A stretch of DNA of 8,898 bases from contig JAEZHS010000212.1 of assembly GCA_023436825.1 (NCBI GenBank), forward strand, positions 1 to 8,898, in the 5' to 3' direction. How positions within the stretch are numbered: position 1 is the first letter of the stretch; each line of letters opens with the position of its first letter. Shown here in pieces: positions 1 through 4,495 of this stretch. The DNA is from Pseudomonadota bacterium (GTDB taxonomy: Bacteria; Pseudomonadota; Alphaproteobacteria; Reyranellales; Reyranellaceae). The notes under the pieces are model-generated. The model was not told the DNA's origin and ran no database searches. It was given only the letters and a program-made list of their open reading frames with translations. The position numbers and the translations under genes are program-made.

Positions 1-128
1 CCGCCAAGCGCACGGCCGAGGCCGTCCTTGACGCCGTCGCCGAAATCTTGCCCCTCACATCCCCTGCCGAATGCTCCAACTACTTCGCTCAGGCAGGATA
101 TGCCAAACTTCAACCCATCACGCTCTAG
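1..128 (+). CDS. IS630-family transposase, C-terminal end only (5' part outside window)
   Basis: The frame is open from the left edge (first complete codon at 3) to a TAG at 126-128. It encodes 41 residues ending in ECSNYFAQAGYAKLQPITL. The ECxNYFxxAGY signature close to the C-terminus is typical of IS630/Tc1-mariner-type DDE transposases, which catalyse cut-and-paste movement into TA targets. The catalytic DDE residues would lie upstream and are not visible, so it cannot be judged whether the enzyme is intact. The stop codon sits inside a 10-bp palindrome (122-131). The element should end a short distance downstream, but I could not define its terminal inverted repeat because the other end is missing. 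The family call rests on recognition of the tail motif alone. Confidence 0.8.
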   Translation, partial: AKRTAEAVLDAVAEILPLTSPAECSNYFAQAGYAKLQPITL

Positions 129-233: not shown

Positions 234-631
234 AGAACCATAGTTGATTCATTCTGGAACTTAAGTTATATTGACCGTGCGTTGCCTCCTGGCAGCTCTG
301 CTCTATGCATCGTTCATCCGATACCAAAGGCTGCGCCGGATGCCGCGCAGGGCCCGTCCGGTTGCCTGCATCCGGACCGGCCGATCTCGGGGTTTTCGGG
401 CTCTCCGGCCCGGTGATTCCGTTGCAAAACTTGCGTAACGGTCCGAATTCGGAATGAGGCCCAACGGATAGGGGGTGCGATCTCGAAGGGCTACTGGGCT
501 CTCTGCCGGAAATGCCGGAAATGCCGGAAATACCGATAAATCCATCGCACCGCTGACAGCAGTGCCTGCGCGGCCGACCGAGGGATCCGCCGCGCACCCG
601 CACCACGTTTACCTGATGCGATGCGCTCGTC
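234..631. other. Gene-free region between the IS end and the cytochrome P460 gene
   Basis: Neither strand holds a convincing gene in this roughly 400-bp stretch. The open frames present have repetitive or arbitrary-looking translations and no usable ribosome binding sites. Visible structure: a 6-bp stem GTCCGG/CCGGAC (356-361/372-377), the 12-bp palindrome TCCGAATTCGGA (442-453), and the 9-bp tandem repeat at 504-539. It is the downstream flank of the minus-strand operon, but no T-tailed hairpin terminator was found for that operon. Confidence 0.6.
504..539. repeat. 9-bp tandem repeat, three exact copies plus a decayed fourth
   Basis: TGCCGGAAA is repeated exactly at 504-512, 513-521 and 522-530, and a degenerate copy TACCGATAA follows at 531-539. 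The unit length keeps reading frames open, which explains a Gly-Ile-Ser (or Phe-Pro-Ala) repeat in spurious translations of the minus strand. It looks like a slippage-generated microsatellite in non-coding DNA. No function can be read from it. Confidence 0.85.
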
Positions 632-1195
632 TCACCGCTTCCCGTACTCTGTGAAGACGTAGTCGCGCGTCACCACATCCGTGTGGCACGCGAACCCGCA
701 CTTCGCGTCGTTTCCCTGGGGCGGCCTGGAGGCTGCATTGGCGGGCCTGAATGTGCCCGACGCCTCGTCATACTCGAACGCGCCCCATCCCCAGCCGCCG
801 CTGTCGGCGAACCGTTTGCTGTCCTTCACCATGAAGTCGACGTCATGCAGGGTGCCCGGCACGGTTGGCTGGCCCGGGTAGCTCTCCTGCTTTTTCGGGT
901 TCCAGTGGATCTTGGCCATCTTGGCGCCATCGGGGAACGGCTTGCCGTTGTCAGGGATGCCTTGCTTGTAGGCGTCGATCATCACCGGATTTCCCAGGAT
1001 CGCGGCGACCTTGCCGCCGTTCCCGCTGAGCGAGATGACGGCCCAGTCCTCGTATCCCCTGAACTCGGAGAATGCGAGACCATCCGGCACTTTGACCGCG
1101 TACTTGTCCTTGTCCTGAGCGGAAATCGAAACGCCGGTGACCAGGACAGCGATCGACACAGCAATACTGACGGCGGTCGGTATGCTCCTTTTCAT
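632..1195 (-). CDS. Exported cytochrome P460-family heme protein
   Basis: 187 aa from the ATG at 1195, chosen because GGGGGAG (1203-1209) sits 7 nt upstream and the protein then opens with a signal peptide: MKR, a hydrophobic stretch of about residues 5-24, and probable cleavage after SISA (A26). The mature part has the P460-family layout: a VPDGLAFSEFRGYEDWA opening, a Trp/Gly-rich GGWGWGAFEYD segment, and a C-terminal heme site C166-GFA-C170-H171 followed by TRDYVFTEYGKR. Family members are periplasmic c-type cytochromes. The best known oxidise hydroxylamine using a Lys-cross-linked heme; many relatives, the cytochrome c'-beta type, bind NO or have unknown roles. The cross-linking Lys cannot be assigned by eye. 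The heme motif has three residues between the cysteines instead of the usual two. It is the last gene of the minus-strand block, 104 nt after the TPR gene. Family call good; substrate unknown. Confidence 0.87.
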   Translation of the reverse strand: MKRSIPTAVSIAVSIAVLVTGVSISAQDKDKYAVKVPDGLAFSEFRGYEDWAVISLSGNGGKVAAILGNPVMIDAYKQGIPDNGKPFPDGAKMAKIHWNPKKQESYPGQPTVPGTLHDVDFMVKDSKRFADSGGWGWGAFEYDEASGTFRPANAASRPPQGNDAKCGFACHTDVVTRDYVFTEYGKR

Positions 1196-1212
1196 CGTGC
1201 ATCTCCCCCATA

Positions 1213-1262
1213 GGCTCGGCGGAGCCGGAGACATGTCGCGCGGGCGGCCTGATCGCCCGCGC
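1213..1262 (-). promoter_or_regulatory. GC-rich hairpins in the leader of the P460 gene
   Basis: Two stems fill much of the 104-nt gap between the TPR and P460 genes. GCGCGGGCG (1238-1246) pairs perfectly with CGCCCGCGC (1254-1262) around a 7-nt loop. GGCTC (1213-1217) pairs with GAGCC (1222-1226) just upstream of the P460 Shine-Dalgarno sequence. There is no U-tract, so factor-independent termination is not supported. Plausible roles are mRNA stabilisation, partial attenuation, or tuning of P460 expression relative to the TPR gene. Structure is seen; role is inferred. Confidence 0.4.
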
Positions 1263-1299
1263 TGGAAGGCTATGAAGACGCCGGACGATCGGTCGGCCG

Positions 1300-1794
1300 T
1301 CAGTTGGTCGGCTTCTTGCCCTGCTTGTAGTTGGCGATCGCCGTCTTGAGCATGCGGTACTCGGTGCAGCCGAAGACGCAGAGCGAGTCGAGGCGCGCCA
1401 GCATCTTTTCGGCCTCGGCCGGCTGGTTGAGCATCAGATAGGCCTCGCCGAGATACTCGTGCGCGCCGAGATGGCGGCCGTCGATCGCCAGCGCCTGCTG
1501 ATAGTACTGCAGCGAGCCCTGCGGATTGCCGGACGAGCGCGTGGCGTAGCCCAGCAGGTTGTAGGCGTCGGCGTTGCGCGGATCGCGCTGGACCACCTGT
1601 TGCAGGAGCGGGATCGCGTTGGCGTAATTCCTGGCCTCGATCATCGCCTTGGCCTGCGCGAAGTTCGGATCGGCCGGCGTCGCGGGCTTGACGGCTTCGA
1701 TCCGTTGCGGATCGGCGCCGCCACCGGCGGCGAAAGTCGCAATCGGAAGTCCAAAAGCGAGCAGGGCCGCCGAGGCAAAAACGGTCGGGCGCAT
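1300..1794 (-). CDS. Exported tetratricopeptide-repeat (TPR) protein
   Basis: 164 aa. The ATG at 1794 is well supported by a textbook AGGAGG (1801-1806) with a 6-nt spacer. An N-terminal signal peptide (MRPTVFASAALLAFGLPIATFAA, here counted as residues 1-23) is likely cut after FAA, placing the protein in the periplasm. Three TPR units follow at about residues 44-73, 75-107 and 109-138, with the expected small/aromatic pattern (YNLLGYATRSSGN, ALAID, EYLGEAYLMLNQPAEAEKML). After the repeats comes C139-VFG-C143-TEYRMLKTAI, a C-x3-C pair that may form a disulfide. TPR domains bind partner proteins and are common in cytochrome assembly and in periplasmic scaffolds. It lies 59 nt after the cyclase gene and 104 nt before the P460 gene, so a role linking these two is reasonable but unproven. 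It has no catalytic motif. Confidence 0.88.
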   Translation of the reverse strand: MRPTVFASAALLAFGLPIATFAAGGGADPQRIEAVKPATPADPNFAQAKAMIEARNYANAIPLLQQVVQRDPRNADAYNLLGYATRSSGNPQGSLQYYQQALAIDGRHLGAHEYLGEAYLMLNQPAEAEKMLARLDSLCVFGCTEYRMLKTAIANYKQGKKPTN

Positions 1795-1853
1795 GGTTCA
1801 CCTCCTGAGGTTGCTGGATTCTCGACTGATACCTCTGCCGGGCAACGAAAATT

Positions 1854-3521
1854 TCATGACATTGCCGTGAGTTCAGCGACTCTCTTGACGGCGCGCACGG
1901 TCAAGCGCCCTTGTCGGCCGCGAATCTCGACGTCGTGGCTTTCATACGTGCCAAGGTCGGCACCGGCGCGATCCAGCAGTTCCTGTGAGACGACCAGTTC
2001 GGCGCCGAATTCCTTGGTCAGCGCCTCGAGGCGACTGGCGATGTTCACCGTGTCGCCGATCGCGGTCAGATGCGTGGTGCGCTCGTAGCCCATCTCGCCG
2101 ACGATGGTCGGGCCGGAATGCAGGCCGATACCGATGCGCAGGGGCTGGTCGAGATCGCCCGACAGCGCCTCGTTCAGATCGGCCAGCGCCACGACCATGC
2201 GCCGCGCCGCATCGAGCGCCTGGCGACAGGCGACCTGCGGCTCGTGGCCCAGGCCGAAGATCGCCATCACGCCATCGCCGATGAACTTGTCGAGCCGGCC
2301 GCCCGCCGCCTCGATCGCCTGACCGGTGGCGCGGAAATAGCGGTTGAGCAGGAACACCACGTCGTAAGGCAGCCTGCCTTCGGAGATCGAGGTGAAGCCG
2401 CGGATGTCAGCGAACAGGATGGCGACATAATGCTCGCCGCCATGCGCCTGCGGCTGGCGGCGATAGGCCTCGACCGGGCCGGCCGACGGGGGCAGCAGCG
2501 GAGTCACGTGATAATGGCCGGGCGGCGGGCGCAGCTGGCAGGCCAGTCGCACATTGGCCGGTGCGCCGACGCGCGCCAGCACCTTCCGCTCCTCCGGCGA
2601 GGCTGCGGGCAGCTTGGTGCGATCCGGGCCGCCGATGCGCACCCGGCAGGTCGAGCAGCGGCCGCGGCCGCCACACACCGAGGCGTGCGGGATGCCGGCG
2701 ATGCGGCTCATCTCGAGGATGGTGAGGCCGGTCGGCTGGGCGACGCTGCGCCGGTCGCCGTAGTCGAGGCGCACGACGCCGGCGCGGCGCTCCCACAGGT
2801 CGCGCAGCGGCCGCGCGCTCAGCGCGCCGGCCAGCAGCATTAGCGCGCCGATCTGCAGGTTGCGAGAGATGGCGTAGAGATTGTCGATATTCTCCTGCGA
2901 CGGCACGTGCACGCGCGCGAACAGGTTCTGCAGGAAGCCCGGCTGCTGGGCGAGGTCGGCGACGTCGCGCAAGGCGATGGCGGCGCCGGCGATACCGCCC
3001 ACCGGCACCAGCAGGGCGACGGCGTAGAGCAGCGGCAGCCAGGTGCGATACCAGGGACGAAGGCGCCACGCGAAGTGCAGGCCGATGCAGGCATGCAGCC
3101 ACACGACGAGAGGCAGGGCGAACTGGCGAACGATGCCGGTCCAGTCGCCGACGACGAGCGAACCCAGCACCCAGGGATAGCCGGGCTCGACGTCGTAGAG
3201 CGTGTGCGCCAGCCGGGTGCCGACGACATGTATGGCGCCCAGCGGGATGATCAGTACGCCGAGACTCCATTGCGTCCATTCCCACGACGACAGCTTCAGC
3301 GCGCGCCGCTGATAGAGCGACCACAGGGCGAGGAAGAAATGGCCGAACAGCGCGCCGTAGAGCACGGTCTGGCCGACCGGATTGTGCCAGATGAAGACGA
3401 ACCAGTGGCGGCCGGCCTCGAGTATGCGCAGCGAGATCAGGCCGAGCGTGTGGTTCAGCAGATGTGTGACGACATAGAAGAACAGCACATAGCCCGACCA
3501 GAGGCGGAGCCGGCCGATCAT
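1854..3521 (-). CDS. Membrane-bound 2Fe-2S ferredoxin/class III adenylate cyclase fusion
   Basis: 555 aa with three parts. Residues 1-240 hold about six membrane segments (near 8-30, 50-70, 84-104, 134-152, 160-183, 222-236) with intramembrane histidines H20, H24, H61, H98, H106, H143 and H149, reminiscent of SdhC-like b-type cytochromes. Residues 248-345 are a ferredoxin domain with C283-x5-C289-x2-C292-x35-C328, the 2Fe-2S ligand pattern. Residues 364-550 are a class III nucleotide cyclase: metal aspartates D372 (FADIRGFT) and D416 (DKFIGDG), base-selecting K412 with T486, and transition-state N493 and R497 (VNIASRLE). The Lys/Thr pair indicates ATP as substrate, hence cAMP (class IIIb type). 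All catalytic residues are present. The ATG at 3521 lies 4 nt after the arsC stop and has no good Shine-Dalgarno sequence, suggesting translational coupling. The family is known in rhizobia and relatives; heme binding is inferred. Confidence 0.92.
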   Translation of the reverse strand: MIGRLRLWSGYVLFFYVVTHLLNHTLGLISLRILEAGRHWFVFIWHNPVGQTVLYGALFGHFFLALWSLYQRRALKLSSWEWTQWSLGVLIIPLGAIHVVGTRLAHTLYDVEPGYPWVLGSLVVGDWTGIVRQFALPLVVWLHACIGLHFAWRLRPWYRTWLPLLYAVALLVPVGGIAGAAIALRDVADLAQQPGFLQNLFARVHVPSQENIDNLYAISRNLQIGALMLLAGALSARPLRDLWERRAGVVRLDYGDRRSVAQPTGLTILEMSRIAGIPHASVCGGRGRCSTCRVRIGGPDRTKLPAASPEERKVLARVGAPANVRLACQLRPPPGHYHVTPLLPPSAGPVEAYRRQPQAHGGEHYVAILFADIRGFTSISEGRLPYDVVFLLNRYFRATGQAIEAAGGRLDKFIGDGVMAIFGLGHEPQVACRQALDAARRMVVALADLNEALSGDLDQPLRIGIGLHSGPTIVGEMGYERTTHLTAIGDTVNIASRLEALTKEFGAELVVSQELLDRAGADLGTYESHDVEIRGRQGRLTVRAVKRVAELTAMS

Positions 3522-3525
3522 GGCG

Positions 3526-3876
3526 CTATTTCAGGAGCGGCAGCACTGCTTCGGGCGGCCGGCCGATGGCGGCGCGCTTGCCCGCCACCACGATCGGCCG
3601 CTGCAGCAGCACGGGATGGTCGGCGATCGCCTTCACGATATCGGTGCGGCTGAGTTCGGCTTTCTTCTTCTTGAGCGCCTTGAACTCGGCCTCGCCGTCA
3701 CGGATCAGCGCCGCGGGCTCGCCGCCGACCATGTCCAGAAGCGTCTCGACCTCGGCCTTGCTGGGCGGCTGCTTGAGGTACTCGCGAACCTGCGGCTCGA
3801 TGCCCTTCTTCCTCAGGAGCTCGAGTGTCTCGCGCGATTTGCTGCAGCGCGGGTTATGCCAGATCGTGATGGTCAT
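3526..3876 (-). CDS. arsC: Arsenate reductase, ArsC (glutaredoxin-dependent) family
   Basis: 116 aa, a normal length for the family. The start at 3876 is chosen over an in-frame ATG at 3960: the GAGGAGA at 3885-3891 gives an 8-nt spacing, and homology begins with MTITIWHNPRCSKSRETLE, while the extra upstream residues look random and would overlap recX. The thioredoxin-like fold carries the nucleophile C11 in NPRCSKSR, and the arsenate-binding arginines of ArsC appear to be conserved at R59 (ALIRDGE), R93 (LLQRPIVV) and R101 or R106 (GKRAAIGRPPE). The enzyme reduces arsenate to arsenite with glutathione and glutaredoxin. No arsenite pump or ArsR regulator is nearby, so it may be a housekeeping YffB/ArsC-like thiol reductase and not part of a resistance operon. 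It lies 64 nt after recX and 4 nt before the cyclase gene. Confidence 0.9.
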   Translation of the reverse strand: MTITIWHNPRCSKSRETLELLRKKGIEPQVREYLKQPPSKAEVETLLDMVGGEPAALIRDGEAEFKALKKKKAELSRTDIVKAIADHPVLLQRPIVVAGKRAAIGRPPEAVLPLLK

Positions 3877-3895
3877 CGAACGCTTCTCCTCATTT

Positions 3896-3918
3896 CCTCT
3901 CCCGTCAGACGGGGGAGG
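3896..3918. repeat. Palindrome between recX and arsC
   Basis: CCTCTCCCGTC (3896-3906) pairs with GACGGGGGAGG (3908-3918) at all but one position, and that one can pair as G-U, giving a stem of about 10 bp with a minimal loop. The CTCTCCCC...GGGGAGAG type of palindrome is a recurrent intergenic element in alphaproteobacterial genomes. There is no T-tract. It sits just upstream of the arsC Shine-Dalgarno sequence and may mark an mRNA processing or attenuation point between recX and arsC. Confidence 0.6.
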
Positions 3919-3940
3919 CGAAGATGAGCGTACTAGAGCC

Positions 3941-4495
3941 TCACTCCTCGTCCAGTGCATCAGCGCTCTTCGCGTCGATCACCTTTTTGGCAACATCGAA
4001 GGCGAAGCCGGCGCGGGCCATCGCGGCGAGGTCGCGGGTGCGCTTGTCCTTGCGGTCCTCCTCCGGCCGGAACGGTCCGAGACGCCGTCGCCGCGCCAGC
4101 GCCACGGCGGCCTGCCATTCGCGCTCGGCCGGGTTGGTGTCGAGCTCCTGGTCGAGCGCCGCCATCGCCCGGTCGAGCGTGTCGCCGTCGATGCCGGCGT
4201 GCTTCAGTTTCTGCCGCATCAGCCGGCTCGACGCGCCGCGCCGGTGCAGCGCGCGCGCCTTGGTCTGGGCGAACTCCTTGTCGTCGATGGCGCCGGCGTC
4301 GACGAACTTGGCGACGATCGCTTCGATCGCCTGCTCGACGTTCTCGATCACGGGCGCTTCGGCCAACTCGGCCTTGCGAACCCGGCGGCCGAGAACGCGG
4401 CGCAGCCCCTCGGCCGTGGCGGGATAGCGCTCGAGATAGAACGTCGCTGCGTTCAGCAGGTACTTCGCGGTGATCGGACGCGCCGGACGCTTCAC
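3941..4495 (-). CDS. recX: RecX family regulator of RecA
   Basis: 184 aa, typical for alphaproteobacterial RecX. It is all-helical with the family's tandem three-helix repeats: about residues 12-45 (KYLLNAATFYLERYPATA), 55-112 (FVDAGAIDDKEFAQTKARAL, then RLMRQKLKHAGI) and 122-175 (RDLAAMARAGFAFDVAKKVI). RecX binds in the groove of RecA filaments and inhibits recombinase and coprotease activity. No recA is adjacent, so regulation with recA cannot be inferred. The start is a GTG at 4495, the earliest that keeps the KRPARPITAKYLL opening; it begins 3 nt after the stop of the HAD gene and has no strong Shine-Dalgarno sequence, so translational coupling is likely. The acidic C-terminal tail (ALDEE) ends just before the intergenic palindrome. 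Confidence 0.88.
   Translation of the reverse strand: MKRPARPITAKYLLNAATFYLERYPATAEGLRRVLGRRVRKAELAEAPVIENVEQAIEAIVAKFVDAGAIDDKEFAQTKARALHRRGASSRLMRQKLKHAGIDGDTLDRAMAALDQELDTNPAEREWQAAVALARRRRLGPFRPEEDRKDKRTRDLAAMARAGFAFDVAKKVIDAKSADALDEE

Follow-up and report, generated by a model that had tools for sequence, protein, structure and literature searches.

In an 8,898-nucleotide (nt) stretch of alphaproteobacterial DNA (contig JAEZHS010000212.1, here called the window) we identify, with a probability of roughly four in five, a redox-regulated adenylate cyclase of the CyaC type, from a Reyranella-like alphaproteobacterium, that has an exported tetratricopeptide repeat (TPR) protein as a recurrent genetic partner and a cytochrome P460 family protein as an independent neighbour. 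An initial annotation had joined the three genes into one sensor, in which the periplasmic P460 heme protein would pass a redox or nitric oxide (NO) signal through the TPR protein to the membrane cyclase. The genes, their shared minus strand, their order, their domains and their gaps (59 nt between cyclase and TPR, 104 nt between TPR and P460) are as first described; the ArsC gene had been left out. The three-part sensor itself is not supported, because P460 is a local and mostly unconserved neighbour. The features concerned are:

1854..3521, minus strand: CyaC-type membrane adenylate cyclase, 555 amino acids (aa), from Pfam Fer2 and Guanylate_cyc, invariant residues and an AlphaFold model
1300..1794, minus strand: predicted exported TPR protein, 164 aa, C-terminal CxxxC (LCVFGCTEY), from Pfam TPR
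632..1195, minus strand: protein of the cytochrome P460 family, 187 aa, with the heme motif CX3CH and with Lys95 as candidate crosslinking residue, from PF16694 and Foldseek
3526..3876, minus strand: ArsC, glutaredoxin-type arsenate reductase family, from TIGR00014 above its cut-off
1238..1262, minus strand: G+C hairpin of 9 bp in the TPR-P460 gap, possible terminator without a T run, from folding of the gap

The cyclase matches Fer2 at 30 bits (cut-off 21) and Guanylate_cyc at 66.5 bits (cut-off 21.9), and its AlphaFold model has six long helices at the N-terminus. Three sets of residues are invariant in 47/47 aligned sequences: the intact class III catalytic residues, the [2Fe-2S] ligands C283, C289, C292 and C328, and the membrane-helix histidines H20, H61, H98 and H143, which we take to be the signature of a CyaC-type hexahelical anchor. 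The membrane cyclase with histidine-bearing helices and an intact 2Fe-2S ligand set seen in the initial annotation is borne out by this invariance of four His and four Cys. The protein resembles Sinorhizobium meliloti CyaC (SMc01818), with its hexahelical diheme-B anchor, [2Fe-2S] centre, class III catalytic domain and redox or quinone control. In the papers on CyaC, the membrane anchor holds two heme b, as in di-heme SQR, the S. meliloti enzyme is a quinone-responsive diheme-B, [2Fe-2S] redox-regulated adenylate cyclase (2022 and 2023 papers), and the input given is the quinone pool via membrane heme b. The redox- and heme-controlled cyclase proposed at the outset is thus supported and matches a published type, and its redox gating was already known because CyaC has been published as a redox-regulated cyclase. 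For the TPR protein, our literature search listed no paper that connects tetratricopeptide proteins with CyaC or with a diheme adenylate cyclase.

From these features a working scheme can be proposed. The six-helix anchor would bind two b hemes through its four histidines and, as described for S. meliloti CyaC and as the architecture and invariant ligands suggest here, would exchange electrons with the quinone pool. The redox state of the anchor, together with the intervening [2Fe-2S] domain, would set the cyclic AMP (cAMP) output of a cytoplasmic homodimer. The exported TPR protein may act at the periplasmic face of the anchor, for example in its heme or disulfide assembly. To judge by its distribution, P460 would be an independent periplasmic cytochrome whose downstream position in this lineage is a chance of gene order, and no input module.

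The named database matches are led by Reyranella and related uncultured alphaproteobacteria. The place of P460 was assessed in 79 fetched loci, 48 of which are Reyranella-type (L001-L047 and L063), with neighbours found by tblastn. P460 stands at the cyclase in one of the 48, the nearest locus L001 (cyclase 97 %), where the same three genes are present; among the loci that carry TPR, three (L013, L038 and L063) stop less than 400 nt past the TPR match. In a whole-genome search at E 1e-3, a P460 match was obtained in 10/47 genomes of the Reyranella-type loci, and the remaining 37/47 keep the cyclase with no P460 match at that threshold. An ortholog (87-98 %) is present in the genomes of three relatives and is adjacent to TPR only in that of L001. 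In Reyranella soli (L096) and G003 (L097) it is on the same strand but 7.6 and 7.4 kb farther downstream than the TPR gene, beyond genes for a solute-binding protein, a permease, an ABC ATPase and an alpha-L-arabinofuranosidase. The TPR-P460 junction has only ~50 nt around the TPR end in common with R. soli, too little to tell an insertion of this cassette there from its loss in the lineage of the window.

A sample of 289 alphaproteobacterial genomes, searched at E 1e-60 for the cyclase and at E 1e-5 for PF16694, agrees with this picture. The cyclase was matched in 87 genomes (partially in four: G111, G232, G241 and G288) and PF16694 in 65, many of these matches being weak; 40 genomes have both. 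P460 is within 5 kb of the cyclase in 1/87 cyclase genomes (G125); in the genome that comes second, G282, the distance is 50 kb. On its presence at 1/48 Reyranella-type loci, in 10/47 of their genomes and near the cyclase in 1/87 cyclase genomes, and on its displacement in two close relatives, P460 is rejected as a conserved third member. Rare co-occurrence, which the initial annotation had named as its refutation, thus holds for the three-gene order across alphaproteobacteria, though P460 and cyclase share genomes beyond independence. Our literature search returned no paper joining cytochrome P460 with adenylate cyclase.

We regard it as extremely improbable that P460 senses NO or hydroxylamine in the periplasm and signals via TPR to the diheme cyclase, even if only in a small clade. 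Such a model can draw on the same-strand arrangement and short gaps in the window and L001, on the exported appearance of both small proteins, on a P460 lysine aligned with Lys106 of AL212 P460, on genome-level co-occurrence of P460 and cyclase, and on the unrelated genome G125, where P460 is 2.5 kb from the cyclase. It has to contend with the single locus among 48, with the 37 genomes that keep the cyclase but give no P460 match, with the ~7.5 kb between the genes in two close relatives, and with G125 itself, in which P460 is convergent with the cyclase on the other strand, follows a cupredoxin gene and has no TPR match within the 17-kb stretch read. Very unlikely, too, is the extended idea that CyaC-type cyclases have a dedicated CxxxC TPR partner, either for heme maturation or as a second redox input, by thiols or metals, from the periplasm, and that a CX3CH P460 was recruited in the window's clade to feed in NO or hydroxylamine chemistry.

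The TPR protein (Pfam TPR_19, 59.8 bits) is the neighbour that recurs. In 43/48 Reyranella-type loci its gene follows the cyclase gene on the shared strand; among the five others, L033, L045, L046 and L047 end 0-290 nt past the cyclase match, which leaves L041 as the one locus long enough to hold it. The protein was also sought in 80 of the 87 cyclase genomes and was matched (E 1e-7) in 63/80. In 21/80 a TPR match falls no more than 2.5 kb from the cyclase (G102, G006, G016, G329, G261, G053, G118, G215, G119, G144, G312, G293, G223, G186, G306, G298, G267, G076, G226, G225 and G128), and four relative orientations occur among them: the two genes converge in 13 and diverge in 3, while on a shared strand TPR is upstream in 2 and downstream in 3. 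Random placement would give ~0.1 adjacencies, an estimate from 84 TPR places, a target of ~6.7 kb and genomes of ~4.5 Mb, uncorrected for relatedness. TPR is likewise the commonest neighbour cluster within 3 kb of the cyclase (18/52 mostly non-Reyranella loci). The script gene calls of this analysis follow a simple GC3 rule, include spurious open reading frames and, in four fetched loci (L161, L165, L166 and L168), missed the TPR gene. The C-terminal motif of 55 cyclase-adjacent copies is CxxxC in 53 and CxxC in 2. The TPR and P460 proteins both begin with a hydrophobic stretch (best 13-residue Kyte-Doolittle means 2.0 and 2.5), consistent, as far as hydropathy goes, with export. The recurrent pair is thus the cyclase and an exported CxxxC TPR protein.

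Several points weigh against our reading of a CyaC-type cyclase with a recurrent TPR partner and an independent P460. The likeness to SMc01818 is one of architecture and ligands. In a fold search bearing on an SQR-like membrane domain, no FrdC or SdhC chain was among the 50 matches listed for the cyclase; the catalytic domain filled the lists and the membrane part was barely probed. Each of the three close relatives with a P460 ortholog keeps that gene downstream, on the strand of the cyclase. PF16694 matches are also more frequent among cyclase genomes (40/87 vs 25/202 others; odds ratio 6.0, p 1.6e-9), in figures uncorrected for genome size and relatedness. Finally, 10/19 examined TPR copies away from the cyclase are near guaA (GMP synthase), the family being confirmed for one such gene.

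The TPR family is therefore not cyclase-specific: the small proteins near guaA are of the same exported family with the same CxxxC end, and they differ from the cyclase-adjacent copies in neighbourhood and mostly in branch, with no two clean clades. As a partner of the cyclase, the TPR protein of the initial annotation is accordingly supported in part: it recurs beside the cyclase and also occurs elsewhere. Relatives near guaA and guaB (IMP dehydrogenase) occur in several alphaproteobacteria (L155-L174, e.g. L156:4297-9749). On a tree of 48 rows, 6 changes of the cyclase-adjacent label are required, of which well-supported branches force at least 4, vs 15.2 in shuffles; as the tree stands, the pairing is therefore clustered, yet without a single simple history.

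What the pairing means can be read in two ways. A tentative possibility is that CyaC-type cyclases have TPR as a genuine accessory subunit, with a CxxxC pair (a disulfide, heme-delivery or metal site) that helps b-heme assembly or adds a periplasmic thiol-redox input. Adjacency in four orientations, the rank of TPR as the largest neighbour cluster and the near invariance of CxxxC favour this, and the loop charges on the cyclase model would fit three periplasmic loops of the anchor; the guaA-side copies and the 17/80 cyclase genomes without a TPR match at E 1e-7 speak against it. That TPR often stands beside the cyclase and yet has no functional tie to it we consider unlikely. The label changes forced by the tree are in its favour, as are the 59/80 genomes with no TPR match within 2.5 kb of the cyclase (some cyclases are near contig ends, for which this count is uncorrected), while 21 adjacencies vs ~0.1 by chance, and an adjacency that persists while strand order is scrambled, speak against it.

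The cyclase is closely flanked on its other side as well. The ArsC gene (TIGR00014, 134 bits vs a cut-off of 106) ends 4 nt ahead of the cyclase start and is preceded on the same strand by HAD and RecX genes. Because ArsC ends so close to the cyclase, the transcription unit likely begins further upstream, among these genes (HAD, RecX, ArsC). ArsC is found within 2.5 kb of the cyclase in 47/48 Reyranella-type loci (all but L046), upstream in 46 and downstream in L041, and is only partial in L004, L018 and L037. S. meliloti CyaC is flanked by the TetR regulator CycR, whereas the window's cyclase has ArsC and the TPR gene at its sides; the TetR gene of the window is divergent, 1.8 kb from the cyclase, with three genes between. 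The plasmid records with cyclase homologs number 155, mostly Rhizobium and 6 Sinorhizobium. The one plasmid cyclase locus inspected has no annotated TetR gene, and in seven distant cyclase loci, with gene calls read by eye and without a family search, no TetR was recognised beside the cyclase. A gene with a DUF1289 representative stands upstream in 10/52 cyclase loci (e.g. L060:5509-5817), on the strand opposite to the cyclase.

A terminator scan of window 500-4100 picked up two terminator-like sites, each of them on the plus strand, and the TPR-P460 gap folds no more stably than shuffled sequences (z = -0.61). The ATG of P460 is at 1195, a start backed by homologs of equal 187-aa length. Downstream of P460, a 14-nt repeat of the TGCCGGAAATGCCG type occurs in three direct copies at window 504-535, with 9-nt spacing, and at the window edge (3-128, plus strand) lies the tail end of an open reading frame that resembles the C-terminal end of a transposase, presumably of the IS630 type. 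A gene for a mechanosensitive channel that carries a cyclic-nucleotide-binding domain is convergent with P460 in the three closest relatives (L096:15513-17051, L097:4505-6013 and L098:4984-6525), 2.8 to 8.7 kb from the cyclase. It is visible in L001 alone of the 79 first loci, most of which reach only ~6 kb downstream of the cyclase. The channel could be a cAMP target.

The P460 protein merits description in its own right. It matches PF16694 at 111 bits (cut-off 27), and its best Foldseek match is Methylococcus capsulatus P460 (6hiu; E 7.4e-11, TM by target 0.77), in keeping with a P460 / c'-beta fold; the model has a mean pLDDT of 76.6, with values below 50 at residues 1-26, 172-180 and 184-187. 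In the alignment its Lys95 falls on K106 of the P460 from Nitrosomonas sp. AL212 (6e17), the residue altered in the deposited K106L mutant, and the position is Lys in 30/34 aligned sequences and Arg in 4, which makes Lys95 a candidate heme-crosslinking lysine. The protein shares fold and profile match with M. capsulatus P460 and AL212 P460 (6amg), and the aligned lysine with the latter; it differs from both in its heme motif, CGFACH, which is CX3CH instead of the canonical CXXCH. All five solved P460/c'-beta structures with alignments shown have CXXCH, and a 2025 superfamily review (PMC11928373) gives CXXCH as the heme motif; cytochrome P460 was joined with CXXXCH in none of the literature matches listed.

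Of 137 P460 sequences (the 120 nearest database proteins, the window and 16 loci), 129 have CX3CH and 7 have CXXCH, while in 1 the motif is broken. This count shows conservation inside one subfamily only, because the 120 are close relatives at 73-93 % identity; the seven with CXXCH are distant homologs, drawn from the whole-genome P460 search of the Reyranella-type genomes. By its motif, the window protein is a variant of the P460 family, not a canonical P460, and its role is likely hydroxylamine or NO chemistry by analogy with known P460s. Neighbours of other P460 copies vary. A second copy in R. soli (L103:7533-10941) is followed, after 3 nt, by a gene pair for a [2Fe-2S] protein (Fer2/Fer2_2) and a molybdopterin-binding oxidoreductase. 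Among four P460 plasmid records, the three inspected have no annotated cyclase, their gene tables being incomplete and none existing for L177.

Thus, the three-part sensor hypothesis is corrected: its core is an ordinary CyaC-type cyclase of the published kind, which is widespread in alphaproteobacteria (87/289 sampled genomes). The neighbour worth testing beside the cyclase is the exported CxxxC TPR protein, a modest new point. The CX3CH P460 subfamily provides a second, independent lead, whose motif departs from the CXXCH of the superfamily and merits a biochemical look.

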